Positions 36,390-64,000 of a stretch of 64,000 nt of DNA are shown here, one piece after another; the first letter of the stretch is position 1; each line of letters starts with the position of its first letter. Origin of the DNA: Desulfobacterales bacterium (GTDB lineage Bacteria; Desulfobacterota; Desulfobacteria; Desulfobacterales; SpSt-501); contig JALOOU010000014.1 in the NCBI GenBank assembly GCA_025454255.1, forward strand, positions 20,186-84,185. Reading direction: 5' to 3'. The position numbers and the translations under genes were made by a program. The notes below the pieces were generated by a model. The model was given only the letters and a program-made list of their open reading frames with translations. It was not told the DNA's origin and did no database searches.

Positions 36390-39300
36390 TTAGTCGTGTA
36401 CGGGCACGAGCCGGATCCCGAAGCCATCCATGCGGTAGATGGGAAGCCCGTCCACCCGGAGGATGCCGGATGCCTCCAGCCCCGGCTGCGGGGTCGGTTG
36501 CACGGCGGTGATGGATGCCTCGACCGTGACCCTGCGGCTGGACGGCAGGATCTGTCCCCGGTAGGTCCAGCGATGGGGCTTTCCGGTTTGAGGCGCAAAG
36601 CGGTGCGAATCGACGAGCCCGGGCCAGCGCTGCCGGGCGGCGAACTTCAGCAGCTGGAGGAAGCTTTCGATCCCCAGGGAGCCGGGGCAGACCGGGTCCT
36701 GGTAAAAGTGGGCCTTGAAAAACCACTCCTCCGGAGCGACCCTTTTGAAACCGCGCACGAATCCCAGCCCGGCCGGCCCGCCGTGCGGCAGGTGCCGGTC
36801 GATGCCGTCGAGCATGCGCAAGGCGCCGGCGGGCATCGCCAGGGGCGGGGCGGGGCTTGCGCCCGGATCGTCGGGGGTGAGCGGGGCCTCGGCGGCAAAA
36901 AGAACGGGCTGCCGCTGCTCCTCTCCGGCCGGCGCGGCGGCCGTTCCGGGCGCCTCGCGCAGGCCCTCCTGCCGTTGCAGGGCGGCGGGCGTGAAAAACC
37001 CGAAGTAGGTCGAGCCCTCGTAGACCGGGCCCGTGCGGCTCGAGATCTCGAATTCGAAATGCTCGATGATCATGTCCGGCACCTCGGAGATCTGGCGCAT
37101 GCGCACGCGCGTCCGCAGGGTGCCGTCGTCGGGGCCGTGGTCGCGATGCAGCAGCGCCTGCCCGCCGAGGTTGCGGAAATGGAGCGGTTTATCGCTTTTC
37201 AGCGCCGAGCCCATGAAGGCCGCCAGCCAGCCGCAGGGCTGCAGGGCCGCCTCGAGCAGGACGCAGTAGGGGACCGATCGGCTGCGGTCGGCCCGGATGT
37301 ACCAGGCGTCGGGCGGCACGTCGAGTTCGGCCGTGACCCACCCGCCCGGCTGAAGCTCCCAGGCCGGGGGCTCGACCGCGGTGATGCGGTCGATGAAGAG
37401 GTAGGGCGGGGCGGGCAGCCGGGCGATGAAGCGCTCCGCGTCGAACGGCCGATAGGCATCGCCGAAGGCGCGGGAGGGGCGGCCGCGGGCGAACTCCAGC
37501 AGATGGCTGCGCGCGAAGCGGGCCGGGGCGGCGGGCGGTGCCGTCGCGGCGGGCGCCGGCCGTCGCCGCCGCCAGAAGGCCTCGATCTGCTGCCGGTCGG
37601 CGCCGGCCAGCTGCAGGGACATGCCGGTGAAGCGCACGATCTGGCGGCCGTCGGCCAGCATATCGGCGTCGGCCAGGGCATAGGGCTGCGGTCCGTAGCC
37701 GAGCTCCTTGATGTCCACCTGGTAGACGACGCGGCGAGTGCGGGGGGTCACCGGCCCGCGGCACTTGAGGGCGGCGCGCACGCCCGGCAGCGGGGCGTAG
37801 CGGGCGTCCGGGGCATCGGTGACCCATCCCAGCCGCTGCACGAAGACCCGCAGGGCGTGGGCGCAGCACTCGTACATCAGAGTGCCCGGCATCACCCGGT
37901 CGTCCACGAAGTGGCAGGTCAGAAACCAGGCGTCGGGCCGGATGTCGGCCTCGGCCCGGATGCGGCCGATCCCGTAGCGGCCGCCGGCGGGGTCGAACTC
38001 GAGCACCCGGTCGATCAGTTTCATGCGGCCGCCGGCAAGCCGGAGGGCCTCGGGCAGTTGAACGCCGTCGAACGCCCGGCCGAAACAGGCCGCAAGGTCG
38101 CCGCGGCGCAGGGCCTCCAGGGCCGCTTCATCGTAGGCCCCGGGCGACAGGGGCACGGGGTCGGCCCAGTCCGGCGGCCTGCGGCCGGCGGAGGGCCGGA
38201 GCTCCTCTCCGGCCAGGATGATGCCGCCCGAGGCCTCGACCTCCTCCGGGGTGAAGAACCCTGCGCACCCGTCGGTCATGGTGATGAGCGGCGCCCCATC
38301 GATTTCGCCTCGGAAGCGGAAGAGAAAAAGATAGGTTTCGCCCTGGCGCAGGAATTTTTCGATCGTGATGTCGTAGCGGATGGTTTCGCCGGGCCGCGGC
38401 AGGTCGCGGTGGAACTCCACCGTCGCATCCAGCAGCCGATAGGTGCGGCGGCCGCGCACGATCTTGTCGATGCCGAGATAGGCGCACAGGAAGAGGTCGG
38501 CCTGGCCGGCCTCCACCGCGATGCACACCGGCGCCCGGCCGCCGTCGAGGTACCAGGCGCCCGGGAGCACGTCATGCTCGGTCACCACCCGGCCGGGGCC
38601 CAGAACCCCCTTTTCGCCGCGGACCTCGAGAATGCGGTCCACCAGCATCAGCGGCTCGTCCGGCAGACGCACCCGGGCTGCAAACCCGTCCACCTCGGCA
38701 AACTCCGGCCCCAGCACCTTGGCCGCCGAGCCGCGGGCGAATTCGAGGCATTGGCTGCGGTCGAAGGCCGGCCCCTTCGCCGGGGCGGGGGGGCGGCCTG
38801 CCGCTGCCTCTCCGCCGCCCGCCGCCGCCAGGAGCCCGGCGTGGACCTTCAGGGCCTCGGCGTAGCGGCGGGTGATGTCGCCGGAGATCTCGAGAAATGC
38901 CTGATGGGCGCGGGCGGTGGCCTGGCTCGCGTGGGCCAGTCCGTCGATCAGGCCGGCTCCCGGCGCCCCTGCCGGGGCCGGCGGAGCGGCGGCCGGGCGG
39001 CCGGCGGCGGGGGGTGCCGCCGGCCGGGGCGCCGGAGGCACGTGGAGCGGTTTTCCCGCCACGGAAACTCGGATCGAATCGGCCCGCTGCGGGGGCGGCT
39101 GGAGTTGGCCGGGGCGGGCCGCCGCCGGCGGGAGCGCAACGGCCTGGCCGGCGCTCTCCAGAACGACGTGCATGCAGTTGCCTTCGTCGCTGAGGCAGGC
39201 GGCGAGTGCGCGGCGGGGGGCGGCGCCGCGCCGAAGCGGCTTCGGGACGCCGGTGGTGGACGGCGCGCGCGGGGCCGTCGCGCCGTGGTAGAGGCTCAGG

Positions 39301-41861
39301 GCGGCCTTCACGACCGAAACCAACCCGGCTGCCGCACCGGTGTGGCCGCAGACCGGCTTGGCCGATCCCGGCGGATCGCCGTCGGCCATTGCCCGTGCAA
39401 AGCGGCCGAGCAACTCGGACTCGAGGGCGTCCTCGGCCGGGATCCCGCTGCCGTGGGCCTCGATCGCGTCGATGCCGGAGGGGTCGACGCCGGCCTCCGC
39501 CAGTGCGGCTTCCAGCGATCTGCGGTAGGCATCGCGGCTGGCGGTTTCGGAGTCGATGCCGCCGCCGCCGGCGGCGCCGACCCCGCGCACCACGGCGTAG
39601 ACCCGGTCCCCGTCGGCCAGCGCCCGGTCGAGGCGCTTGAGCACGAGGGCCACCGCCCCCTCGCCCGGCAGGGTGCCCTCGCTGGCCGGATCGAACGGGC
39701 GCAGCCGGCCGCCGGCCGAAAACGGACGCAGCGCCCGATGGAGGGCGACGGCGCGCAGATCGCCGCACAGGTCCACGGCCCCGGCCAGCGCCCAGTCCAG
39801 CTCATCGGCCTGCAGCGCGCGCAGCGCCTTCTCGAGCGCGCGCACGCCGGATGCCTCTGCGGCCGAAAGCGTGAAGCTGGGCCCGCCCAAACGGAACTCG
39901 CGTGCGATGCGGCTTGCCGCCATGCTGCCCAGGGCGCCCAGCACCCGGCTGGCGGTGAGCGGCGGGCTGCAGGCGTCCTGGGCGCGGGCGATCCAGTCGA
40001 GCGTCTCCGGGGCAGCTGCGCAGTCGCGGCGCGGCTCCGCCCGGCGCGCATCGAGCAGCCAGCGCAGGTGGAAGTTGGTGGCCTCGAAGTCGAAATCGAT
40101 GCCGATCAGCGCCCCCGCGCGGGGGCGCTCCCGGCGCAGTTCGAGTCCGGCGTCCTGCAGCGCGTCGGCGGCGACGTTGAGCATGAGCAGCTGCTGGGGC
40201 AGGATGTCGGGGATCTCCCGCGGCGGGATGCGGAACCGGCCGGACGGAACGATAAAGGCATCCTGGAACCCGCCCGCAAGCGGCTGAAGGTCCGGCAGGA
40301 GCCGGTCGCAGTCCTTCCACCGGCCGGCCGGCCGTTGGCGGATCAGCGGCGTTGCTGCGAAGAGCGCCTCGCGCAATGCGGCCAGCGAATCGGCCCCGCC
40401 CAGACAGGCCGCCATGCCCACGATGGCCACCGCCGGCGGGCCGGCACCGGGGATGCCCGCGACCGGAAAAGGGGCGTTCGGCGTCCGGGCGGGTGCGCCG
40501 CGCGCGGCGGCGGAGCCGCTCGTCTGCCACTCCTCGAGCAGCAGATGGGCGTTGATCCCGCCGAAGCCGAACGCGCTGACGGCCGCCCGGCGCGGGGTCT
40601 GTGGGGTTCGCCGCGGCCAGGGTTCGGCCTCGAGCGGGACCCTGAACGGCCCCCCGTGCAGCGGGCTGTGGGGCGGCGCCTGCCGGAAGTGCAGGGTCGG
40701 CGGCAGGGTGGCGTGCTCAAACCCCAGCAGGGTTCTGATCGCGGCCGCCGCTCCCGCCGCCGTCAGGAGGTGGCCGATCATCGACTTGACCGACCCCAGG
40801 GCGCACTGGCCCGGCGCCCAGCCGGCATCGGCCCACAACCGCCGCAGGCTCTCCAGCTCGACGGCATCGCCTACCGGGGTTCCGGCGCCGTGGCATTCGA
40901 TATAATCGACGTCCGCCGGCGACCACCCCGCCGCGGCGTAGGCCGCGGCCATGGCGCGCAGCTGCCCCTCGCTGTCGGGGGCCAGCAGGTTGCCGCGCAG
41001 GTCGTTGGAGAGGCCGATGCCGCGGATGAGCCCGAGGATCGGGTCCCGCTCGGCGAGTGCGTCCGGCAGGCGCTTCAGGGCGAGGAGCCCCGCCCCTTCG
41101 CCGACGACCAGGCCGTCGGCGCTGCGGTCGAACGGGGCGCAGCGGCCGCTGGGCGAAAGCGCCCTCAGCTGGCTGAAGCCGACCTGGGTGAAGAGGCAGT
41201 CCGGCCGGGAGAGCCCGCCGGCGAGCATCGCATCCGCCCGTCCCGCGGCCAGCTCGTCGCAGGCGAGCTTTATGGCGTAGAGCGAAGAGGCGCAGGCGGC
41301 ATCCAGGGTCAGGCTGCCGGCGCCCAGCCCCCAGGCCTTGGCCAAAACGGCGGCGGGCAGTCCCGCCACGCGGGCGGCGAGACTGGGGCCGCGGCCTCCG
41401 GAGACAGCCGGCGGCCGCGGCGGATCCGCCTCCAACAGGCGGCCGAGCAGCTCGCGCGTGAAGCGCGAGGAGGCCTCCGTGGGCAGGACCAGGGCGGCCA
41501 GAACCACGCCGGTCCGCTCCCGATTGAGGCGCGGGGGGGCCGGCCCTGCAAGGATCTGCCGGCTGGCCTGGAGCAGCACGTGGTAGAGCGGGTCCAGCTG
41601 CCGCAAAAGGTGCGGGTCGATCGCCAGCCCCTCGGGGTCGAAGCTGAACTCCGGCAGCAGGCAGCAGCGGGCGGAGACGGCCTTGTCCGGCTGGAGCTCG
41701 GCGCGGACCATCTGCTCGGGGGGGGCGATCCAGCGGGTGCGGGGCACATCGGCCGCGGCATCCCTTTTGGAGCAGATGTTGGCCCAGAGGCGGCCGGGGT
41801 CGAGCGCTCCCGGGAAAAGCCCGGCCATGCCGACCACGGCGATGGGGGTCGCAGGGCTCAT
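36390..41861 (-). CDS. PfaC-like multidomain synthase: KS-CLF-DH-DH
   Basis: 1823 codons; KS DAACASSLYAIKLA; second KS-like domain with TLSAAEASG (no Cys) = CLF; FabA-type HFVDDRVMPG and HFYQDPVCPG, each preceded by a pseudo-hot-dog region; ATG overlaps bcsC-like stop. Confidence 0.9.
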   Translation of the reverse strand: MSPATPIAVVGMAGLFPGALDPGRLWANICSKRDAAADVPRTRWIAPPEQMVRAELQPDKAVSARCCLLPEFSFDPEGLAIDPHLLRQLDPLYHVLLQASRQILAGPAPPRLNRERTGVVLAALVLPTEASSRFTRELLGRLLEADPPRPPAVSGGRGPSLAARVAGLPAAVLAKAWGLGAGSLTLDAACASSLYAIKLACDELAAGRADAMLAGGLSRPDCLFTQVGFSQLRALSPSGRCAPFDRSADGLVVGEGAGLLALKRLPDALAERDPILGLIRGIGLSNDLRGNLLAPDSEGQLRAMAAAYAAAGWSPADVDYIECHGAGTPVGDAVELESLRRLWADAGWAPGQCALGSVKSMIGHLLTAAGAAAAIRTLLGFEHATLPPTLHFRQAPPHSPLHGGPFRVPLEAEPWPRRTPQTPRRAAVSAFGFGGINAHLLLEEWQTSGSAAARGAPARTPNAPFPVAGIPGAGPPAVAIVGMAACLGGADSLAALREALFAATPLIRQRPAGRWKDCDRLLPDLQPLAGGFQDAFIVPSGRFRIPPREIPDILPQQLLMLNVAADALQDAGLELRRERPRAGALIGIDFDFEATNFHLRWLLDARRAEPRRDCAAAPETLDWIARAQDACSPPLTASRVLGALGSMAASRIAREFRLGGPSFTLSAAEASGVRALEKALRALQADELDWALAGAVDLCGDLRAVALHRALRPFSAGGRLRPFDPASEGTLPGEGAVALVLKRLDRALADGDRVYAVVRGVGAAGGGGIDSETASRDAYRRSLEAALAEAGVDPSGIDAIEAHGSGIPAEDALESELLGRFARAMADGDPPGSAKPVCGHTGAAAGLVSVVKAALSLYHGATAPRAPSTTGVPKPLRRGAAPRRALAACLSDEGNCMHVVLESAGQAVALPPAAARPGQLQPPPQRADSIRVSVAGKPLHVPPAPRPAAPPAAGRPAAAPPAPAGAPGAGLIDGLAHASQATARAHQAFLEISGDITRRYAEALKVHAGLLAAAGGGEAAAGRPPAPAKGPAFDRSQCLEFARGSAAKVLGPEFAEVDGFAARVRLPDEPLMLVDRILEVRGEKGVLGPGRVVTEHDVLPGAWYLDGGRAPVCIAVEAGQADLFLCAYLGIDKIVRGRRTYRLLDATVEFHRDLPRPGETIRYDITIEKFLRQGETYLFLFRFRGEIDGAPLITMTDGCAGFFTPEEVEASGGIILAGEELRPSAGRRPPDWADPVPLSPGAYDEAALEALRRGDLAACFGRAFDGVQLPEALRLAGGRMKLIDRVLEFDPAGGRYGIGRIRAEADIRPDAWFLTCHFVDDRVMPGTLMYECCAHALRVFVQRLGWVTDAPDARYAPLPGVRAALKCRGPVTPRTRRVVYQVDIKELGYGPQPYALADADMLADGRQIVRFTGMSLQLAGADRQQIEAFWRRRRPAPAATAPPAAPARFARSHLLEFARGRPSRAFGDAYRPFDAERFIARLPAPPYLFIDRITAVEPPAWELQPGGWVTAELDVPPDAWYIRADRSRSVPYCVLLEAALQPCGWLAAFMGSALKSDKPLHFRNLGGQALLHRDHGPDDGTLRTRVRMRQISEVPDMIIEHFEFEISSRTGPVYEGSTYFGFFTPAALQRQEGLREAPGTAAAPAGEEQRQPVLFAAEAPLTPDDPGASPAPPLAMPAGALRMLDGIDRHLPHGGPAGLGFVRGFKRVAPEEWFFKAHFYQDPVCPGSLGIESFLQLLKFAARQRWPGLVDSHRFAPQTGKPHRWTYRGQILPSSRRVTVEASITAVQPTPQPGLEASGILRVDGLPIYRMDGFGIRLVPVHD

Positions 41862-44638
41862 CGGCCGAACTCGCGGAAAAAATCCCTGCGCTGCCAGAGC
41901 CGGTGCTGCGGTTCGAAGAAAATCTGGAGGCCGGCGCCGACCACCCATTCGGTGGCGTCGGAGCTGTTGTCGATCCCGGCAAATCCGCCGGCGGCCAGAT
42001 GCGGGGTCACCAGGTGCATGCCCTGCAGCTTCAGGCTGACGCCGATCTTGTTGTCGCTGTCGGCCGCGTACTTGCCGTTGGCTTCGGCGGCGGCGGCGGG
42101 GGTGAAGCCGGCCGTATCGCCGCTGAAGAGCGGGTAGAAGGGGCTGGCGTCGAGACGCTGGTGCAGCCAGCCGGTCGCGGCCTGGACGTCGACCCATGCG
42201 TTGCGGCACAGGGCGGTGCGGTAGCGCACGAACGGCCCCACCATGGTCATCAGCTCCGGGCTGTAGTAGCCCCCGTGGCCGAAGGTGTGAAAATCGCTGT
42301 TGCGGTGAAAATGCCGCGCGGTGGCGAAGAGGCCGGCGCTGAGTTCGTCCGCGCCGCGCCACCAGGTCCGGCCGACGGCCGTGTCGAGCTGAACGGAGTA
42401 GTTGTCCCAGACCCGCTCCCCCCGGTAGGCGTCGAAGCCGGCCGACCCGCTCACCCACCAGCGGTTTCCCAGCGGCCAGCTCGTGCCGGCCTCGATGCCG
42501 TTGCGGGTCACCCGGCCCCAATCGTCCCGGCTGTAGGGGTCCTGCTGGCCGACATAGGAGAGGATCGAATCCTTCACCGGCAGCCGGTGCGCCTGCACAT
42601 AACCGCTCGGCGCGCTGAGCCGGGCGCTGAAGGTGGGCGTGGGGTCGACCGGCCCGCCGAGGGGCGTTGCGCCGGCCTGAACCCGCAGGTGCAGACGGCC
42701 CTCCATCTCGACGCCGACCTGCGGCTGCACCCCGAACACCGAATCCTCGAGATCGCGCTGCGGGGGCAGGCCGTTCAGGCTCTGGTAATAGCGGCCGGCG
42801 CGCGGGGGGGAGGGCCCCGCGTCGCCTTTGAGCCAGGTGGGGGTCAGCGTGGCAAACCACGAGGTGCCCAGCGGCGTCGGCACCACCAGGGTCAACGGCA
42901 GCGCAGTTTCCGCCAGGTCGCTGTATCTTCCGCTGCTTTGCTTGTTGCGGTGGTAGAGAAAGGCCTCGACGCGCGGCGAGTCGGCGTGGGTGTAGCACCG
43001 GCCGGGGCCCGGGTCCAGCTGGGCGGCCGTGACCGGCGCCCCGCGGTCGAAGAAAAAGCCGCCGGCGGCGGCCCGGAGCGTCGGGTCCGGGTCCCGCGCC
43101 AGGCGGGCGGCCAGATCATAGCCCGCCTGCTCGTCGCCGGCGGCGCCGTAGATGCCCAGCAGCCCCCCGGCCAGGCCTGCGCCGGGGCTGCGGGCGAAGG
43201 CCGCCTCCATCAGCGGCCGGGCGTCGCCGTGCCGCCCCTGTTCGTAGCGCGCCCAGGCGAGCAGCTCGCCGGCGGCCGGGTCCGCCGGGTCCAGGGCCAG
43301 GAGCTTCTCCGCCGCAGCGGCGGCGCGGTCCCAATCCTGCGCCGCGGCGGCGGCACCGGCCTGCCGGCGGTAGACCAGCGTTCGGAGCGCACGGGTATCG
43401 GCATCCTCGGGGATCCCCCCCTGGTCGAGGGGCGCGAGGGCGGTATCCAGCCGGCCGGCGTTCAGCCGGGCATAGCCCTGGCCCAGCGCGAACTGCTTGT
43501 TGCCGGGCTCACGCGCCAGCAGCTGCGCGAAGATGCGGTCGGCCTCTTCGAACCCGCCCCGGTTCAGCGCATCCCAGGCCAGTGCGGCCAGGGCGTCGCG
43601 GTCCTCGGGGGCATGCTCCAGGACGGCCCGCGCGGCGGCAGCCCGCTCCGGGGAGTCCGCCGGGAGCTCCGCCAGCCGGCGCCTGAGGAGGTCGGCCTCG
43701 ATTCGGCTGAACGCGGCCCGCTCATCCGCGGGACGGCCTTCAAACATCGGCGCCTGCCGCTGCATCAGCTCCATCGCCTCGTCCGGGGCCAGCGCGGCGG
43801 CCAGATCGCTCAGGATCCCCGCCCGCAGCGCCGGCGGCAGGTCGCATGCGAGCAGGCGGCGCTGGAGCGCTGCGGCCGGAGGGCCTTCGCCGGCCGCGCG
43901 CAGCTTGAGACCGACCGCGTGGAACAGATCCGGCCGCAGGCACCGTTTCAGAGCCTCCTCATGGGTTGCGAGAAACGCGCGCAGCGCGGCCGCGTCGGCC
44001 TCCTCGGCCAGGGCGGCGTGGTCCGCGGCCAGGTGCGCTTCGAGCAGGCGGCGCTCCCATGCGCGGCGCCGGTCGGGGGGGGGCTGCGCGATTTGGCGGC
44101 GGGCCTCCTCCCAGCGGCCGGAGCGGATCAGGAGATCGACCAGGGCCGGCCGGGTCTCGGGCAACCGGTAGCGGTCGCGGACGAGGGCGGAGAGGTGCGC
44201 GGCGGCCTGATCGATCTTGCCGAGACGCGCCAGCGTGTAGGCCAGCCCCAGCCGGGCGTTCATGGCATCCTCGGGGGGGGGGGAGGCGAGCAGGGTCGCA
44301 AAAAGCCCGGCGGCGGCGCTGTAGCGCCCCGCTGAATAGTGCTGCCACGCGCGGGAGAGGTCCGAGGGCGGCGCGTCGGACCCGAAACCGGCCTGCGGCA
44401 TCCTGTCGGCCTCCAGGATCTCGGCGTCCGGCGGCGTGGCATAGACCCAGTCCGGATCGACGAGGTCGACGCGGCTGTCGTCCGGGCGGGTGGTGACCAT
44501 CTCCTCGGAGCGGGACTGGCGCACCGCCTGGTCATGGACGGCCGCTTCGCGTTCCAGCGCCAGCGTCTGGCCGACTCCTTCCACGGCCGGGATCAGCCAG
44601 AGTGCGAGAGCGCACAGTGAGACGAGGCAGCACCTCAT
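41858..44638 (-). CDS. bcsC: BcsC-like cellulose export TPR/outer-membrane protein
   Basis: Signal peptide, TPR region, C-terminal GHGGYYSPELM beta-barrel motif; overlaps bcsZ stop (ATGA). Confidence 0.88.
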   Translation of the reverse strand: MRCCLVSLCALALWLIPAVEGVGQTLALEREAAVHDQAVRQSRSEEMVTTRPDDSRVDLVDPDWVYATPPDAEILEADRMPQAGFGSDAPPSDLSRAWQHYSAGRYSAAAGLFATLLASPPPEDAMNARLGLAYTLARLGKIDQAAAHLSALVRDRYRLPETRPALVDLLIRSGRWEEARRQIAQPPPDRRRAWERRLLEAHLAADHAALAEEADAAALRAFLATHEEALKRCLRPDLFHAVGLKLRAAGEGPPAAALQRRLLACDLPPALRAGILSDLAAALAPDEAMELMQRQAPMFEGRPADERAAFSRIEADLLRRRLAELPADSPERAAAARAVLEHAPEDRDALAALAWDALNRGGFEEADRIFAQLLAREPGNKQFALGQGYARLNAGRLDTALAPLDQGGIPEDADTRALRTLVYRRQAGAAAAAQDWDRAAAAAEKLLALDPADPAAGELLAWARYEQGRHGDARPLMEAAFARSPGAGLAGGLLGIYGAAGDEQAGYDLAARLARDPDPTLRAAAGGFFFDRGAPVTAAQLDPGPGRCYTHADSPRVEAFLYHRNKQSSGRYSDLAETALPLTLVVPTPLGTSWFATLTPTWLKGDAGPSPPRAGRYYQSLNGLPPQRDLEDSVFGVQPQVGVEMEGRLHLRVQAGATPLGGPVDPTPTFSARLSAPSGYVQAHRLPVKDSILSYVGQQDPYSRDDWGRVTRNGIEAGTSWPLGNRWWVSGSAGFDAYRGERVWDNYSVQLDTAVGRTWWRGADELSAGLFATARHFHRNSDFHTFGHGGYYSPELMTMVGPFVRYRTALCRNAWVDVQAATGWLHQRLDASPFYPLFSGDTAGFTPAAAAEANGKYAADSDNKIGVSLKLQGMHLVTPHLAAGGFAGIDNSSDATEWVVGAGLQIFFEPQHRLWQRRDFFREFGR

Positions 44639-45696
44639 GGCCGGTCCAGTTTGATTCGGGCTAGCAGAAAGAGCGCGTGCGAGTAGTAGTTGGTCGTCTC
44701 GGATCCGATTTTGTTCCATGCGTCCTGTTGGAGCCTGCGCGCCAGGCTCTCCTTGCCGAGGCGCTCGGCGCAGGCCGCCATGACGGCGTAGAACCCGGCC
44801 GGCGCCTCCTCCGTCGCAACGAACCCGTCGATCAGGTCGACCCGGCTGGGGAGGTAGCCGGAGCGTTCCACGAACTCCAGGTACGGCGCGTACGCCTGCA
44901 GGCGGTCCGTGCGGCCGCCCCAGAGAAGATAGAGCGGGACCCGGATGGCCTCGAAGCCGAAGTGGCGGCTTTTCTCGGTGTGCACGGAGGCCCTGCCGTT
45001 CTGGAGCAAGACCCAGTCCGCCGGCAGCCCGAAGCGGGAAAAGGTCGCCAGGTCGAGCAGCCGCTCGCTGTCGGCGGCGATACGTTCCCAGAACTTCTTT
45101 TCCTCCGCCTGGGCGAACCGGGAAAACGCCGGCAGCACCAGGTAGCCCGGGTTGAACACGAATCCGGCATCGGCCTCGAAGCCGAAATAGGCCGGCGCGA
45201 TCAGCTGCAGCCCGTTCCGGGCCACGGCCAGCTGGGTGCGCAGGTCGCGCACGATCCGCAGGGCGGATTGCCTGAACGGCGGGTGATTCCAGCGCGCCGC
45301 GGCTTCCAGCAGGGCCAAGGCGATCAGCAGATCGCCGTCGCTGGCGTTGTTGTAGTCGATGACCGCCCATTCGCCGTTGGGGCGCTTGCCCCACGACCAG
45401 GCGAAGAGCGCATCGCGCCGGACCTGGAGGTTCTCGCTGGTCCACTTCCACAGCCGGTCGAACGCCGGGCGATCCTCGTGGGTCAGGGCCAGCATCAGCC
45501 CGTAGCCCTGTCCCTCCGAGTGGCTGATGGCGTCATGGAAGCGGTCGATGATGCGCCCGTCGTCTGAAACGAAGGCCTGCTTGAAGGCCTGCCAGTCCTG
45601 CGCTGCGGAGGGGCCGGCCCCGATGAGCGCCAGCAGGCAGAGCAGGTGCAGGCGGCGCAGCGCCGGCGCCGGCCGTTTGGGGGCGTCATCACGCAT
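44635..45696 (-). CDS. bcsZ: GH8 endoglucanase BcsZ
   Basis: ISHSEGQGYGLMLAL, DYNNASDGDLLIALALLEAA, VPLYLLWGG. Confidence 0.93.
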   Translation of the reverse strand: MRDDAPKRPAPALRRLHLLCLLALIGAGPSAAQDWQAFKQAFVSDDGRIIDRFHDAISHSEGQGYGLMLALTHEDRPAFDRLWKWTSENLQVRRDALFAWSWGKRPNGEWAVIDYNNASDGDLLIALALLEAAARWNHPPFRQSALRIVRDLRTQLAVARNGLQLIAPAYFGFEADAGFVFNPGYLVLPAFSRFAQAEEKKFWERIAADSERLLDLATFSRFGLPADWVLLQNGRASVHTEKSRHFGFEAIRVPLYLLWGGRTDRLQAYAPYLEFVERSGYLPSRVDLIDGFVATEEAPAGFYAVMAACAERLGKESLARRLQQDAWNKIGSETTNYYSHALFLLARIKLDRP

Positions 45697-47938
45697 GCGA
45701 GCGCTCGAGCCGGCGCCGGCGCCGATGCTTCACCATTTGGTAGACCACCAGGCTGAGAAGCAGCAGGAGCACCAGCAGCAAAATCAGCGCCAGGACGGGG
45801 TTCGTGTTGATGAAGTTCTGCATCCCCGGCAGGTGGCCGGGGCTGCCCAGGTAGTAGCTGGGCCCGATCAGGCTCGCGCTGGCCGTGGCCTCGGGCCGCT
45901 GCAGGTTGAGGAGCACCAGGTCCCCGTCGGCGGCGGCCTGCACGGCCGGCTGCCAAAGCGCCCGGCTCGCGGCGAGCAGATCCGCGGCGGAGTCGGCGGT
46001 GAGCAGAAGGACCGTGCGCTCCGCGCTCTCCGGGTGCCGGAATTGCATCAGCGCCGCCCGGCCGGGTCCCAGGTTCCCGCTGAAATCTCCCTGAACCGCG
46101 CTCGCCGTGCGCAGGTCCGCGAGGCTGCGGGGGGTCTCCTGCGCCGGTTCGGCGGCCTGGGTCCAAAACCGGGTCGGCTCGGCCGGCCGCGGGAGGGGCC
46201 GGTCCAGCTGGGGCAGCGATATCTGCAGGGGGGCGATGCCGGCAATCGGCGCCCGGCTGAGCAGCTCCCTGGGCAGGTTCTGAAAACGTCCGGCCAGGAT
46301 GAGGTCCTTGGGCGCCGCCGGCTTGTCGCCTCCGAGCACCCACGATAACCCGAAGGGCGGGTAGCCGATCTTCTGGGCGCCCAGCGCGACGAGGTTCAGG
46401 GCGGCGCCGGCGGCGGCGTAGCTGGTGTCGGTCAAAGCGACGGCGGCCTCCCGCATGTCCGGCCAGCGCCCCACCGGGAAGGCGTCCTGGAAGAAGACCC
46501 CGAGTTGGGGCATTTTGATCCAGTGCGGGGCGTCCGGCAGCATGAGCTTGGAATCGCCGAAGATCGTCAGGCGCAGATTCTCGGTCTGGATCAGGGTGCA
46601 CTTGTCGGTGTGCAGGGGCGTTAGCACCGCCTCGAAGCTCAGCTGGTTGGCGCCCGGTTTGAAGGCGGCCAGAGGGATGTCCACCCGGTAGTCGCGGAAG
46701 TAGTCGCCCCGCGGGTTGTCCAGGCGGACGCCCGAGACGAACTTGCCGTTCAGGCGGATGTTCAGGACCGAGTCCGAACGCATCATGGCATTGTAGGCCA
46801 TGTGCAGGATGATGCTGGCGAACTTGTTGGGCGAAAAGTAGAGGTCGGACGGCAGCCGCAGGTCTAAATTCAAACGCGGGGCGGCGATGCCCCTGAACTC
46901 CGCGGTCGCGGCCCCAAGGCTGGCGAAGGTGTAGGTTTCATCCGCGGCGAGGCCGCGCTGGATCATGCGCGGCTCGATGTCGGGCAGACGCAGGTTCGAG
47001 ACGCGCGTCGCCGGGGAGCCGGGAAGCGGGTAGGAGAGCGCGGCGAACGCCTGGGCGGCGGTGAGCAGATCGGCTTCATCCTTTCCGGTGACGACCACCA
47101 GGGCGCAGCCGGGGTTGGGCTCCCACGCCGCCTGTCCGGTGGGGCCGATTTTCTTCTCCGGCAAAGGCTGGATGGCGATGACCGGGCCCTCTTCCAGCTG
47201 CATGGGTTCGGGCAAAAGGGCCTGCAGGTCGCGGTGGAGGGCGATCAGGACGTTGTCGACGCCGGGGCTGAGGCTGTTTGCCAAGGCCGTCTCGGGCACC
47301 CGGTACTCATAGCGCAGACCGATCCCCGAGGCGACCAGCGCCGCGGCCTGAAGATGGTTCGGGCTCAGGGCGGAGACGACCAGGTTGACCCGGGTGTCGA
47401 AGATGTTGCGCGGGTCGAACAGGAAATCGTTGATGGCCGACACCCGGCCGGGCACGCCGACCTGCTCCAGCTCGAAGCTGAAGTAGGCGTCGTTGAGTTT
47501 GAGCCAGGTCCAGAGCTCCGGAGAGAAGGGGTCCTCGCACTCGTCGATCGTGTAGTGCTGGGCCACCCAGAAGCTGCAGGAGTTGTAGCCGGTCTTGAAA
47601 ACCGAACCGGGCACCGGGACGACCACCTCGCCCTGGGGGGCGTCCGGGTTGAGCCGGATCTGGGCCAGCGGCTGATCGTTGATCATGAACACCAGCCGGG
47701 AGTTCAAGGGGATGAGGGCGGTCGAGTTCACATAGGCAAAGTGCAGGCTCGCCTTCTTGACCTGCCAGCGCTCGGGGATCGGCAGGCTGAAAGTGTAGTT
47801 GTCCATCGAGCCGCGCAGGCGGTAGTCCTGCACGGGGGCCACTTTGCGCAGCGGGATCTGCAGGGTGGCCGCCGACGCCGAGGCGTGAAACAGGGCCGTG
47901 AAGAGCAAGAACAGGGATAACGCCTTCATTGCGTGCAT
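45689..47938 (-). CDS. bcsB: Cellulose synthase periplasmic subunit
   Basis: Signal peptide; DYTF-like VQDYRLRGSMDNYTFSLPIP; C-terminal TM segment; position after bcsA. Confidence 0.92.
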   Translation of the reverse strand: MHAMKALSLFLLFTALFHASASAATLQIPLRKVAPVQDYRLRGSMDNYTFSLPIPERWQVKKASLHFAYVNSTALIPLNSRLVFMINDQPLAQIRLNPDAPQGEVVVPVPGSVFKTGYNSCSFWVAQHYTIDECEDPFSPELWTWLKLNDAYFSFELEQVGVPGRVSAINDFLFDPRNIFDTRVNLVVSALSPNHLQAAALVASGIGLRYEYRVPETALANSLSPGVDNVLIALHRDLQALLPEPMQLEEGPVIAIQPLPEKKIGPTGQAAWEPNPGCALVVVTGKDEADLLTAAQAFAALSYPLPGSPATRVSNLRLPDIEPRMIQRGLAADETYTFASLGAATAEFRGIAAPRLNLDLRLPSDLYFSPNKFASIILHMAYNAMMRSDSVLNIRLNGKFVSGVRLDNPRGDYFRDYRVDIPLAAFKPGANQLSFEAVLTPLHTDKCTLIQTENLRLTIFGDSKLMLPDAPHWIKMPQLGVFFQDAFPVGRWPDMREAAVALTDTSYAAAGAALNLVALGAQKIGYPPFGLSWVLGGDKPAAPKDLILAGRFQNLPRELLSRAPIAGIAPLQISLPQLDRPLPRPAEPTRFWTQAAEPAQETPRSLADLRTASAVQGDFSGNLGPGRAALMQFRHPESAERTVLLLTADSAADLLAASRALWQPAVQAAADGDLVLLNLQRPEATASASLIGPSYYLGSPGHLPGMQNFINTNPVLALILLLVLLLLLSLVVYQMVKHRRRRRLERSHA

Positions 47939-47940
47939 GG

Positions 47941-50307
47941 TTAGATCCTCTTGCCGATCCATTTGATGGAGTTGATGAAATTCAATCCGAGGCCCGCGCA
48001 GACCGTCGCGGCAAGCCGCACGATGCCGACCAGGTTGCGCAGGGAGCCCCTCACGCCGATCCCCAGGATGATCAGAAAGCCCTTCAGAGAGTTGACGGTT
48101 CGGCCCAGTTTCGCATCGTAGAAATATTTCCAGCGGCCGCTGTCGCCGTAGACGAAGTCGACGATGCGGGCATAGGCCTGCTCGTCGGGGTGCTCGAACT
48201 CGCAGCCCAGGATCAGGCCGGCTTCGCGGCGCTCCCGGCGGCGGACGCTCACGGGCAGGACGTGCAGGCGCCCCTCGCTGTCGCAGGCCTCCAGGATCAG
48301 GCGCTCTCCGGGGAGCCGGGCCCCCGCCTCGGTCATCACCCGCACCCCCGCGGTCGAAAGGTCGACCAGGGTGGCTGCCGTCGGGGCCTTGGACCCCGGC
48401 GCCCGCACCGTGACCGGCTCCCGGGTTTCGTAGCGGTGCGCCCGGCGGATTTGGCGCCGCTCCCACACGACCCCCAGGCAGCAGAGGATCAGCACCATGT
48501 TGAAGGTGTTCCAGGCCAGGCAGACGAACACCGTGTCGGCGAGCAGCGGGGCGGTGACCAGCTCCTTGAGGCCGGCCGGGTAGGCCAGCGCGGCGAAGAC
48601 CAGCATGATATAGAACGGCACCGAAAGGGGCGTCAAGGCGTCTTTGCGCGCTGAAATGGTTTTGGGAGTGACGCGGAACGTGGGCTTGCGCGGGTGGGCG
48701 AAGACCGAGAGCACCGCCGGGGCGAGGAAAATGCTCTGGATGGTTTCGTAGAGTTCTGAAAAAAAAGGGTGACGCAGACGGCCGAAAAGATAGTTCGTCA
48801 CGTAGTAGGAGGCCAAGAGATGCGGAATGGCGTAGATCGCCACCTGGGACAGGGAGGCGTTGTAGATCCGCAGCCCGAAGAACAGAAACAGCAGCGGGGA
48901 GACGAAGAAGATGATCCGGGCCAGGCCGAACAGCCAGAAGAAGCAGGAGTTGAAGTAGCAGATCCGCTGACCCAGGCTCAGCCCCTTTTTGAACAACGGG
49001 TTTTTCAGCACGAAAATCTGCATCATGCCCTGCGCCCAGCGGCTGCGCTGGATGATGAAGTGGTCGAAGGATTCGGGCGACAGCCCCATGATCATGGGCT
49101 TGTTCAGATAGACGCTGCGATAGCCGCGCGCGTGCAGCTCCATGGCGGTCTCGGCGTCCTCGGTGATCGTGTCGCCGGCCACCCCGCCGATCTCCTCCAG
49201 GCACCGGCGCCGCAGCAGAGCGGCCGAGCCGCAGAAGAAAGAGGAGTTCCAGAAGTCGAGCCCCAAGTGGATGGCTCCGTAGAACATCTCGTTTTCCGTC
49301 GGGCTGCGGCGCCGGGTGTCCAGATTTTTCTCCACCGGCGTCGGGTTGATGAAGAAATGAGGGGTCTGCACCAGAAACAGCCGCTCGTCCTCCAGAAAAA
49401 AGCCGACGGTGCTCTGAAGGAAGTCCCGGGTCGGGACATGGTCGCAGTCCAGAACGAGCACCAGCTCCCCGCGGCTGCGATGGAACCCGTTGTTGATGCA
49501 GCCGGCCTTCCCCGAGAGTTCAGCCGTCTCGTCGCAGCCGCAGTTGCGCAATCCACCGTTGATGTTGCCGGCTTTGGCCCGGGTGTTGTCCTCCCGGGTC
49601 AGGTAGTGGACTCCCAAACGGGCCGCCAGGCCCTTTAGCGATTCGGCCCGCGCGCGGGCCGCCGCCGCTTGAAGCGGGTTGGGGTCGTTCAATTTGGAGA
49701 TGGTGCCGCCGTCGTCCAGCAGGTAGATGGCGAGCCGGTCGGGGGGATAGTCCAGCTGCGTGCAGGCCGCGAGGGTGACGTGCACCACCTCCACGGGTTC
49801 GTTGTAGGTCGGGATGAACACATCCACCGTGGGCAGCCGCGCGGGGTCGGAGGGAAGCGGGGGCGCCTTGCGGGCCAGGGGGGAGATGTTCACGATCATC
49901 CCCATCGAGTGGATCAGGATCCCATACGTTTCGGCCAGATAAAGCAAGGTCATGAAGGTGAAGTCCCAGCCGCCCTGATAGCTCAACGTTTCGGTGGTGC
50001 GGAACATCCAGTACCGCCACGACAGGAATGCGCCCAACAGGATGACCGTGATGCGGCTGACATCCGGATTGAAACGCTTGGACCATCCGGACAGGTACAA
50101 CACCACCAGGACCGTCAGGCTCATGAGGACCTGGTTGTCGAAGGAGAGGTGGATGGCGGAGCCTATGGCGGCAAAGCACATGAGCAGGCTGAAGGCGATC
50201 CAGTGCATCGTGCCCGGAGTCCGGTCGCCGGTCGGGTCGGCGGCCAGGGGGTGCGGCCGCTCGCTGTGATCGGTGGAGGATCTCGCGCTCATGGGTCGCT
50301 TTATCAT
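47941..50307 (-). CDS. bcsA: Cellulose synthase catalytic subunit with PilZ domain
   Basis: DVFIPTYNEP, DCDHVP, TEDAETAM, QRSRWAQGM (QxxRW); C-terminal RRAHRYETREPV...DLSTAGVRV PilZ. Confidence 0.96.
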   Translation of the reverse strand: MIKRPMSARSSTDHSERPHPLAADPTGDRTPGTMHWIAFSLLMCFAAIGSAIHLSFDNQVLMSLTVLVVLYLSGWSKRFNPDVSRITVILLGAFLSWRYWMFRTTETLSYQGGWDFTFMTLLYLAETYGILIHSMGMIVNISPLARKAPPLPSDPARLPTVDVFIPTYNEPVEVVHVTLAACTQLDYPPDRLAIYLLDDGGTISKLNDPNPLQAAAARARAESLKGLAARLGVHYLTREDNTRAKAGNINGGLRNCGCDETAELSGKAGCINNGFHRSRGELVLVLDCDHVPTRDFLQSTVGFFLEDERLFLVQTPHFFINPTPVEKNLDTRRRSPTENEMFYGAIHLGLDFWNSSFFCGSAALLRRRCLEEIGGVAGDTITEDAETAMELHARGYRSVYLNKPMIMGLSPESFDHFIIQRSRWAQGMMQIFVLKNPLFKKGLSLGQRICYFNSCFFWLFGLARIIFFVSPLLFLFFGLRIYNASLSQVAIYAIPHLLASYYVTNYLFGRLRHPFFSELYETIQSIFLAPAVLSVFAHPRKPTFRVTPKTISARKDALTPLSVPFYIMLVFAALAYPAGLKELVTAPLLADTVFVCLAWNTFNMVLILCCLGVVWERRQIRRAHRYETREPVTVRAPGSKAPTAATLVDLSTAGVRVMTEAGARLPGERLILEACDSEGRLHVLPVSVRRRERREAGLILGCEFEHPDEQAYARIVDFVYGDSGRWKYFYDAKLGRTVNSLKGFLIILGIGVRGSLRNLVGIVRLAATVCAGLGLNFINSIKWIGKRI

Positions 50308-50423
50308 GCAGCTGCGCGGCCGGTTCCAAACGCCCCGGTCGGCGGGATTGAGTCGGTCTGGAAACAGGCGGCCCATAAATCCGATTGGGCCGGGTTTCGG
50401 ATCGATTTTGAGATGTTACACCT

Positions 50424-59609: not shown

Positions 59610-60092
59610 ATGATCGCAAAGGTGATCACGCGCAAACGGTCGGATGATATCCGCGCGACAGCCTCCGACCATCTTTACTGGATGACGAAAACCTCCGAGG
59701 AACGCTTCGAAGCGGTGGAAATCCCAAGACGGCCGTACCATCGAGGTTCAGCCAGTGAGATTCAGCCAGACTTCAGAAACCTGCTCGCGTTGTTCAACAC
59801 GCATAAAGCGGAATATCTGATCGCGGGCGGTTGCGCGCTGGCCTTCCATGGCGCACCGCGCTGCACCGGCGACCCCGATATTTTCATCAACTCCGGCGCG
59901 GATATAGCCCCCCATCGCATCCTTCCGACAGGCCCCTGCAGGCAGCGAGCAGGGCCGCCGCCGCGGGACACCAGGCCCGGGGCTGGCCCGGGCACCGCTG
60001 AGCGTCCGCGGCGAAATGCCTTCGGCCGAGGGGGGTGCTGCTTCCGACGGGCTCCCCGACCAGGGGGTTCGACGCTATGCGTGTGGAGGTGA
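59610..60092 (+). pseudogene. Decayed nucleotidyltransferase locus (in-frame fused remnant, C-terminus lost)
   Basis: DFRNLLALFNTHKAEYLIAGGCALAFHGAPRCTGDPDIFI is NTase-like but homology stops near 59905; upstream YWMTKTSEERFEAVEIPRRPYHRG looks like the end of a separate small protein. Confidence 0.6.
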
Positions 60093-61079
60093 GGGGCGGT
60101 CGCCCGGAGCCATCATGTCGGCGAGGCGGGTGCCGATGATCTCCTCGGCTTCGGCCATGATCCGGTCGAGCAGCTCCCGGCAGGTGGGGATGTCGCGGAT
60201 CAGCCCGATGCACTGGCCGGCGGCCCAGGTGGCCTTATCCACATCGCCGTCCTGCAGCATCTGCCGGCCCACCCGGCCGGAGACGTAGGGGATGAGCTCC
60301 TCGATGCGGGTGTTGCCCCGGCCTTCGATTTCAAGGACCTTTTCGGCGGCCCGGTTGTGCAGCACGCGCTCCGTGTTGCGCAGGCTGCGCATGATCAGGC
60401 GGGTGTCGGTCTCGCGGCGGCGGATCAGCGCCAGCTTCATGTTTTCGTGCACCGGCGCCTCGCGGGTGGCCACGAAGCGCGTGCCCATGTTGATGCCGTC
60501 CGCGCCCAGGGCGAGCGCCGCCGCCAGGCCGCGGCCGTCGGCGAATCCGCCGGATGCGATCAGGGGCAGGTCGACCGCGTCGCGAGCCAGCGGTACGAGG
60601 ATCAAGGTGGTGACGTCGTCCTCCCCGGGGTGGCCGGCGGCTTCGAACCCGTCGATGCTGATGGCGTCGCAGCCGATCGTTTCGGCCTTCAGCGCGTGGC
60701 GCACCGAGGTGCATTTGTGAACGACCTTGATGCCCGCGGATTTGATCTGCGGCATGTAAGGCTCCGGGTTGCGGCCGGCGGTTTCGATAAAACCTACCCG
60801 CTCCTCGACGCACACGCGGATGAGGGCCGGGTAGTCCGGCGGCCGCAGGGTCGGCAGAAAGGTCAGGTTGACGCCGAAGGGCTTGGCGGTCATCCGCCGG
60901 CAGCGGCGGATCTCCGCCCGCAGGCGTTCGGCGTCGGGGAAGGTGAGGGCGGTCATGAAGCCCATGCCGCCGGCGTTGGCCACCGCCGCGACCAGCTCGG
61001 CCGTGGCCACCCACATGAGCCCCCCCTGGACGATGGGGCGTTCGACGCCGAAGAATTCCGTGATCCGCGTTTTAAGCAT
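60075..61079 (-). CDS. Nitronate monooxygenase / enoyl-reductase-like FMN TIM-barrel protein
   Basis: RPIVQGGLMWVATAELVAAVANAGGMG, SIDGFEAAGHPGEDDVTT, IASGGFADGRGLAAALALGADGINMGTRF. Confidence 0.9.
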   Translation of the reverse strand: MLKTRITEFFGVERPIVQGGLMWVATAELVAAVANAGGMGFMTALTFPDAERLRAEIRRCRRMTAKPFGVNLTFLPTLRPPDYPALIRVCVEERVGFIETAGRNPEPYMPQIKSAGIKVVHKCTSVRHALKAETIGCDAISIDGFEAAGHPGEDDVTTLILVPLARDAVDLPLIASGGFADGRGLAAALALGADGINMGTRFVATREAPVHENMKLALIRRRETDTRLIMRSLRNTERVLHNRAAEKVLEIEGRGNTRIEELIPYVSGRVGRQMLQDGDVDKATWAAGQCIGLIRDIPTCRELLDRIMAEAEEIIGTRLADMMAPGDRPSPPHA

Positions 61080-61178: not shown

Positions 61179-63710
61179 CTAAAGGGTGCCCTCCGGCTTG
61201 AAGGCCCGGTTTAAAACCGGGTCCATCACCGCTTCGAAGCCGGTCAACCGGGCGACGACCTCGCCCTGCGCGTCCAGAAAGGTGAAGTCCCCGCGCATCT
61301 TTTTCCCGGCGGCATCCCGCACCTCGAGCACCACCGTAATCCCCTCGCTCGGGAAGGCCTGCCGGAACTGCCGGTAGGAGGAGGCGAGGCTGGGCAGGGA
61401 GACGCTGCCGCGCTGCTCGTAGCACCACAGGCTTGCCATCTGGAAGGCGGCGTCGAGCACGAGCGGGTCCGCCAGCCAGCTGTTGCGCAAGGGCGAGGCC
61501 ATCCACTGGACCGGGGCCGGAGCGCCGACGGCGTCGGCCACCATGCCGTCCGCGGTGCAGCAGCGGATCCCGCGCAGGCCCTGCAGCTGGCGTCCGTGGA
61601 AGAGGATTTTTTCGTAGATTTCAGCCGGCGAGCGCGGGTAGTGGTTGCAGGCCAGCGCATCGGGCAGACGATAGGCCGGCGGCGGCGCATAGTCCTCGGC
61701 CAGGATCGCCCTGGCCCTGGAGTGCAGGATCTCCTTGCCTTCGTCCATGCCGTTTCGCAGCTCGAGCTCGACCTCGAAGTGGCCGTTTTTGCGCAGGGCC
61801 TTCCCGGCCAGAAGGCGGACCCGCTTGGCCTTCCGTTCCAGCCGGATTCCGCTCATGATGCGCAGCTCCTCGAGTCCGTGCAGGATCAGGCCCGGGTTTT
61901 CGTGCAGCGCGCCGTGCCCGAAGAGCTCCGCGATCAGCGCCAGGGGCACGACCGGTTTGCCGTCGATGACATGGGAGCCGAGCACCGGGTAGGATGTCAG
62001 ATCGATCTGGCGCTCGAAAAGGATGCTGAGGGGCTGCCTCGGACTCGCGGCGGCCTGCATTGAGGCGGGGTTCAGGGTCCCGCCGATCACCACCTCGACC
62101 GGGGCGCCGGCCGGCCGGCCCAGCTCGCGGATCAGCGCGATAGCCCCTTCGGCGGCGGGCAGCAGCGTGACTCCCTGGCGTTCGAACTCGCGCTTGATGG
62201 AGGCCGTCACCATGCCGCATTCCCAGGGCCCCCAATTGATGGAGACCACGCGGCAGCCGGGCCGGTTGTCGGATTCGGCTTGGGCCAGCTTGTTCAACGC
62301 CTCATTGGCCATGGCGTAGTCGGCCTGGCCCCGGTTGCCGATGCGGGCGGTGACCGAGGAAAAAATGACGATGGCCTTGAGCTCGTCCGGTGCGCACGCC
62401 TCGAGCAGCGACCGGAACCCATCGAGTTTGGTCGTGAACACCCGCTCGAACTGCTCCATGTTCTTGGCGGCGATCAGCCGGTCCTCGAGCACGCCGGCGC
62501 CGTGGATCAGGCCGCGGATCGGCCCGAAGCGCGAGCGGGCGTCTGCCAGGGCGGCGCGGACCTGCCCGGCGTCACGCACATCGACGGCGTAATAGCGCAC
62601 GGAGGCCCCGGCCGACGCCATCGCCGCCAGCGAGTGCGAGACCTCCCGGTTCGCCAGAAGCTGCCGCAGGCGCCGTTCGACGTCGGCCGGCCGCACCGTT
62701 TGGCCGGTGAACTCGTGCTCGATCAGCGCCGCTTTGATCTCCGCCTCCGCTGCCAGGCCGTGCATCCACTCCGGCTCGGGGAAGGGTTCGGGCGAGCGGC
62801 CGAGCAGAACGAGGCCGGGGCGGACCCTGCGGGCCAGCTCCAGGGCGCAGGCGGCGGTGATGCCGCGCGCGCCGCCGCTGACCACGACGGCCTCCCCCGG
62901 CTGGAAGGGAAGCGCCCCCTCCGGATAGTCTTCCGCCGCAAGCACCGGCGTGCGGCAGCCGTTCGCGGCGAGGCCGGCCTCCAACGGGCCGCGGGTCATG
63001 GCGTGGGCGGCGACGGCCCGGGCCGCGGCGCGCAGATCCGTCCACTCCGGGTCGATGTCCAGGGCGCGGCAGATCACCTCCGGCCATTCGGCCGCGGCGG
63101 TTTTGGCCAGCCCGGCGAGTGCGCCTTGAACCGGGTTGGCCACGGCCCGGCCGCTGAAGCCGAAGGCGCCGTCCATGCGGGTCACTGTGGTGAAAAAGGC
63201 GCCCCCGCTCCGCGCGGATTCGGCCAGGTCCCCGGCAAGCCTTTGGGCGAGCTCGAAGCTGTTCTTCAGGTCCGCCTCCACAGCGGCCGGGGCCGGGTTC
63301 TGGACGATCACCAGGCCGGCTGCTGGCGGCAGATCCCTCCGGTGCTGCAGGATGTCGGTCGACACCAGGACGGCGTTGATCCCGAGCCGGCCGAACTCCG
63401 CCAGGAGGGCCTGCGAGAGCCCGGCGCGGTCGTCGGTCACAAAGACCTTGCGGCCCTTGGCAACGGCCACCTCCGCCGGGCCGGCCGCCGGGGCCTCCTG
63501 CAGGCGGACGACGCGGCGCTCGGCGGGCCGCCCGCCCGATGCGGCCGCGGCGAAACGGCACGAATCCGCCGCCGCGCCCGGCGACGGCGGCGCCTCCGGG
63601 GCCTGCGGCAGGGCCGGGGCGGGGGCGGCGCTGAGAAAGGCGATGATCTGGCCCAGCGTTTTGAGCCGCCCCATGTCCTCGGGGGCGACGGGCCGCAGGC
63701 CTCGAGGGTG
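61179..63710 (-). CDS. PfaA-like megasynthase C-terminal part (KR-DH), 5' boundary broken by frameshift
   Basis: [43 protein letters not shown] (KR); [23 protein letters not shown] and [10 protein letters not shown] (DH). Confidence 0.88.
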
Positions 63711-64000
63711 GAGAGGATTTCGACGCGCTTGATGGAGTCGATGCCGAGGTCGGTTTCGATGTCCATGTCGAGGCCGAGCATCTCCACGGGGTAGCCGGTC
63801 AGCTCGGCCACCACCGCCAGCAGCAGGGCTTGCAGATCGTGGCGGTCTCCGGTTGGAGGCGCGGGGCGGGCTTCCGGAGCCCCTGCGGGCGCCTCCGGGG
63901 TCTGCGGCAGGGCCGGGGCGGGGGCGGCGCTGAGAAAGGCGATGATCTGGCCCAGCGTTTTGAGCCGCCCCATGTCCTCGGGGGCGACGGGCCGCAGGCC
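63591..64000 (-). repeat. Tandem ACP-module repeat (111 bp matched: 63591-63701 vs 63890-64000), period 299 bp
   Basis: One mismatch in 111 bp; both encode (L)[31 protein letters not shown]-type linker. Confidence 0.93.
63705..64000 (-). CDS. PfaA-like megasynthase ACP module, continues beyond right edge
   Basis: [41 protein letters not shown], the LGIDS(I)KRVEIL ACP motif of Pfa-type synthases. Confidence 0.88.

Follow-up and report, generated by a model that had tools for sequence, protein, structure and literature searches.

The PfaA-like synthase gene and its surroundings

The window, by which we mean the whole stretch of 64,000 nucleotides that was analysed, is G000:C89:20186-84185. Contig C89 has a length of 84185 bases, and its last base is therefore base 64000 of the window. 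The minus strand, read inwards from this end, carries the ACP2, KR and DH portions of a PfaA-like synthase gene (Table 1). In the last 564 bases, the ACP2 frame runs out of register at a frame break and ends at the stop at 63437. The synthase is directly followed by a FabK/nitronate-monooxygenase-like gene, which occupies the same place in relatives G001 and G004. Between the PfaA-like gene and a PfaC-like gene further into the window lie bcsC-, bcsB- and cellulose-synthase-like genes, together with others.

Table 1. Positions, in window coordinates, of the split synthase and neighbouring genes
Feature	Position	Strand	Basis
Linker copy L1, after ACP1; first base is the contig end	63888..64000	-	sequence; contig end = window end (84185)
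ACP2 (PF00550), DLGIDSIK intact, C-terminal part out of frame	63698..63826	-	Pfam match to residues 59-101 of window:63437-64000:-, E 9.5e-8
Frame break CTCGAG/GCC, ACP2 into its 3' linker, 13 nt absent	63698..63706	-	sequence; comparison with the C164/C89 junction; spacing 86 vs 99 nt
Linker copy L2, after the frame break, in the KR frame	63589..63701	-	repeat comparison
Out-of-frame tail after ACP2 if the break is real, stop at 63437	63437..63700	-	ORF list; codon-position GC
KR-DH half, one uninterrupted frame; 831 aa from internal Met 63674	61179..63701	-	ORF; Pfam; TIGR02813 E 1.5e-96
KR	~62888-62220	-	Pfam KR E 8.5e-39
DH	~62033-61230	-	Pfam PS-DH E 7.6e-13
FabK/nitronate-monooxygenase-like gene	60075-61079	-	
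bcsC-, bcsB- and cellulose-synthase-like genes	41858-50376		
PfaC-like gene, 2202 aa, two KS domains, four FabA-like stretches	36390-42998	-	

Tandem ACPs are a hallmark of the PfaA-type synthases, and their number varies (PMC3098273, PMC4882568). The gene described here has at least two, ACP1 on a second contig, C164, and ACP2 on C89. Its domains follow the order KS-AT-ACP-KR-DH, with Pfam matches to KS, AT and PP-binding on C164 and to PP-binding, KR and PS-DH in the window, and synteny supports this order. Against TIGR02813, whose curated cut-off of 1010 applies to the whole protein, the separate pieces of the split gene score 931.5, 82.7 and 323.8. A linked PfaD gene is present on C164 (score 599, cut-off 449), and the PfaC-type KS-KS-FabA-like gene is linked within the window. 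The gene order XerD-PfaD-KS-AT of C164, in which the XerD-like recombinase was named by eye from the sequence, matches XerD-PfaD-KS-AT-KR-DH of G002 and others, and the succession of KR-DH and FabK-like enzyme on C89 matches the order in G001 and G004. The gene adds one more ordinary member to the PfaA-like family.

The contig junction and the frame break

A search of the same genome with the last 1500 bases of the window gave a single other match, the start of C164. Read into its contig end, C164 encodes the XerD-like recombinase, PfaD and KS-AT-ACP1, closing with ...ILSTLEERSP. The end of C164, ...CTCGAGGAGCGCAGCCCC, and the start of C89, GGCCTGCGG, abut in frame as STLEERSP/GLRPV. Given this in-frame join and the gene order shared with relatives, the predicted PfaA-like gene is split between the two contigs inside its ACP array. 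A third ACP copy on a further contig was not found in the own-genome search, which matched C89 and C164 only; any additional copies would therefore have to be collapsed in the assembly or missing from the bin.

The frame break is present in the deposited sequence, where ACP2 leaves its frame on the minus strand at window 63701/63700. The sequence-only reading had noted MGRLK sites at 63973 and 63674, 299 nt apart, and an in-frame read-through that is out of register, with the expected continuation after ACP2 in another frame; we find all of this on the minus strand. The junction consists of CTCGAG (63706-63701), then GCCTGCGG from 63700. The joined ends of C164 and C89, which serve as the reference for the other unit of the gene, read CTCGAG-GAGCGCAGCCCCG-GCCTGCGG and encode LEERSPGLRP. 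By this comparison the ACP2-linker junction is shorter by exactly 13 nt, in agreement with the earlier guess of a deletion of about that size; the deposited, short form is CTCGAGGCCTGCGG and the long form is CTCGAGGAGCGCAGCCCCGG. Three equivalent placements of a 13-nt deletion convert the joined C164/C89 junction into the observed one. The deletion is flanked by GG..GG (2 nt) and adjoined by the self-complementary GGCCTGCGGCC. A deletion between short GGCC repeats, as proposed in the earlier reading, is not supported and was rejected, as the alignment gives only the GG..GG bounds.

The surroundings of the break are highly repetitive. The linker copies L1 and L2 are identical at 112 of 113 bp, the first 99 bp exactly, the last 88 bp of ACP1 and ACP2 up to CTCGAGG are the same, and the ACP/linker stretch has about 75% G+C. 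The break thus lies among near-identical repeats where a contig ends, a position that the sequence-only reading could not show: the contigs part in one ACP-linker junction, and the 13 nt are lost at the matching place of the neighbouring unit. C89 begins at the very base where the exact identity of the linker copies sets in. Without a difference between the short and the intact junction there would be no such boundary, so the short junction was probably part of the assembly graph already, as would be expected if some reads or a strain variant really carried it; this calls for caution about an assembly error.

GC by codon position is 0.65/0.91/0.83 in the out-of-frame reading of the tail, as against 0.83/0.64/0.92 in the KR frame. 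Compared with G004, dN/dS values are 0.22/0.93 for KR-DH and 0.26/0.98 for KS-AT, in tests that are blind to a very recent deletion, and KR-DH has no internal stop. An old pseudogene was rejected on these grounds, since KR-DH and KS-AT have similar dN/dS and stops are absent; the ordinary values of KR-DH argue against an old pseudogene, but not against a recent one. Synteny and the conservation of KR-DH fit one intact gene.

ACP arrays in relatives

The gene was compared at 59 loci of Desulfobacterales and other deltaproteobacterial drafts, a set in which G033/L057 and G013/L063 may overlap with other entries. Most complete genes of relatives form a single open frame, some 2000-2700 aa long, with 1-5 ACPs, and the gene is in frame in G016 and G054, genomes assembled into one or two contigs. 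Automatic scoring of 102 units, from the D of DLGIDSIK to LKTL, gave a spacing of 99 nt in 100 cases, the exceptions being 86 nt in ACP2 of the window and 97 nt in G005; intact units with a deviating motif were missed by this scoring, and their 99-nt spacing was checked by eye. The comparison with relatives, which the sequence-only reading had called for, bears out its impression of a short unit: with a spacing so nearly invariant, the shortness of ACP2 is not a chance reading.

The ACP frame and the KR frame disagree at just three of the 59 loci, G000, G005 and L067. In G005, the Prado118 MAG of the same genus, 2 nt are missing between CTC and GAG, three bases from the position of the G000 break. 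The preceding unit of that array (L030:6210-6530, G005:C207) passes from CCCTC directly into the N-terminal linker of the next ACP, and this unit without a linker has a spacing of 222 where about 300 is usual. The break at L067:7560-8300 (Meg22_02_Bin_90) falls in a linker between ACPs, next to a short tandem duplication in which ATAAAAGCCCGGAAG is repeated. The only frame changes found outside an array are those in the KR-DH of L063:4965-7553 (GMC6.metabat2.104, on the same contig as G013:C8). Frame breaks thus number three in about 34 kb of array versus one (L063) in the flanking KS-AT and KR-DH regions, which total 281 kb (P ~0.005, with small numbers).

Contig ends are also concentrated in the arrays. 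A contig end lies at most 700 bp upstream of KR in 11 of 40 genomes, when 1.76 are expected from contig density (P 4e-7). Most of the ten KS-AT contigs inspected end inside or just after ACP1, and those of G003, G006, G010, G027 and G038 end within about a dozen codons of the point where C164 stops. The G006 bin holds two different PfaA-like KS-AT genes (L091 on C87 and L103 on C339), 75% and 64% identical to that of the window's genome; one of them may be a paralogue or contamination.

Origin of the break

The frame break is quite likely an artefact that arose when the tandem ACP array, GC-rich and made of near-identical units, was assembled or sequenced for a draft MAG. The true gene would then be a single PfaA-like frame without interruption, in the order KS-AT-ACP1-ACP2-KR-DH and perhaps with further ACPs after ACP2, spread over C164 and C89, and the missing 13 nt would be present in the organism. 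Near-identical ACP/linker units at about 75% G+C would be hard to resolve with short k-mers, and the assembler may have dropped the 13 nt while resolving the two linker copies. The matched positions of contig break and deletion, the enrichment of contig ends and the similar break in another draft make this the best explanation. The earlier reading had left the choice between a real mutation and an assembly error open; we favour the assembly error, given the contig end in the array, the near-identical repeats, the broken draft of the same genus, the contig-end enrichment and the single-frame relatives, and keep a real deletion as the lesser alternative.

Such a deletion, recent and either fixed or confined to one strain, would truncate the synthase after ACP2 and separate KR-DH from it, leaving a pseudogene or a partly functional gene. 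The GG..GG bounds with the adjoining GGCCTGCGGCC make a plausible slippage site, the position of the contig end, exactly at the linker-repeat boundary, suggests a graph in which the deleted junction was present, and the conservation of KR-DH is compatible with a recent event. However, the three broken array loci of 59 are all in draft genomes, two of them of the same genus with breaks almost at one codon, contig ends accumulate in the ACP array, and the gene is otherwise undamaged; we therefore regard a real deletion as unlikely. The near-coincidence of the breaks in two species could also be taken to mean that slippage really recurs at the ACP2-linker junction in the genus, a hotspot that reversibly switches the synthase between full-length and KR-DH-less forms, which we consider very improbable.

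Another reading is a real gene split, in which KR-DH would be made separately and act in trans, as ATG 63674 opens a frame of 831 aa with intact KR and DH. Nevertheless, relatives with an intact frame encode the same EDM residues (GAGGACATG-like sequence) within it, so that nothing at 63674 looks evolved as a start, and such a split is seen in no relative examined, save draft genomes with suspect arrays. Separate translation was rejected for want of an evolved start and has very little probability. Alternatively, programmed -1 frameshifting might connect the ACP and KR frames, since a -1 shift at GAG would enter the KR frame. However, an X XXY YYZ slippery heptamer is absent at CCCTCGAGGCC, and the RNA downstream of the break folds no better than shuffled sequences (z -0.48), which gives no sign of a stimulatory structure. 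Nearly all relatives are in one frame and need no shift, and even after a -1 shift ACP2 would be four residues short in a segment of invariant length. With slippery site and conservation lacking and the fold ordinary, programmed frameshifting was rejected, and its probability is close to nil.

The frame break is thus unlikely to be a feature of the organism's biology. Should it be an artefact, annotating the gene as broken would be wrong, and caution is due when ACPs are counted from draft genomes of the PfaA-like family, because contigs end in the array much more frequently than chance predicts. If it is real, it would be a natural KR-DH knock-out in a predicted lipid synthase of Desulfobacterales.

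Assembly errors account for many apparent pseudogenes of bacteria (Cooley and Wright 2024, PMC11017572). A literature search on frame errors of tandem repeats in polyketide synthases from metagenome-assembled genomes yielded nothing specific. The present case resembles the spurious pseudogenes described by Cooley and Wright, in that a conserved and otherwise intact gene is broken in a draft assembly, but differs in the link of its break to a tandem repeat and to the end of a contig. With the PfaA-type polyunsaturated fatty acid and secondary lipid synthases (TIGR02813), the gene shares the KS-AT-(ACP)n-KR-DH organization, near-identical tandem ACPs, an adjoining PfaD and a PfaC-type gene. In Desulfobacterales relatives such a synthase is usually one open frame, whereas here it extends over two contigs and carries the 13-nt break in the ACP2 linker.
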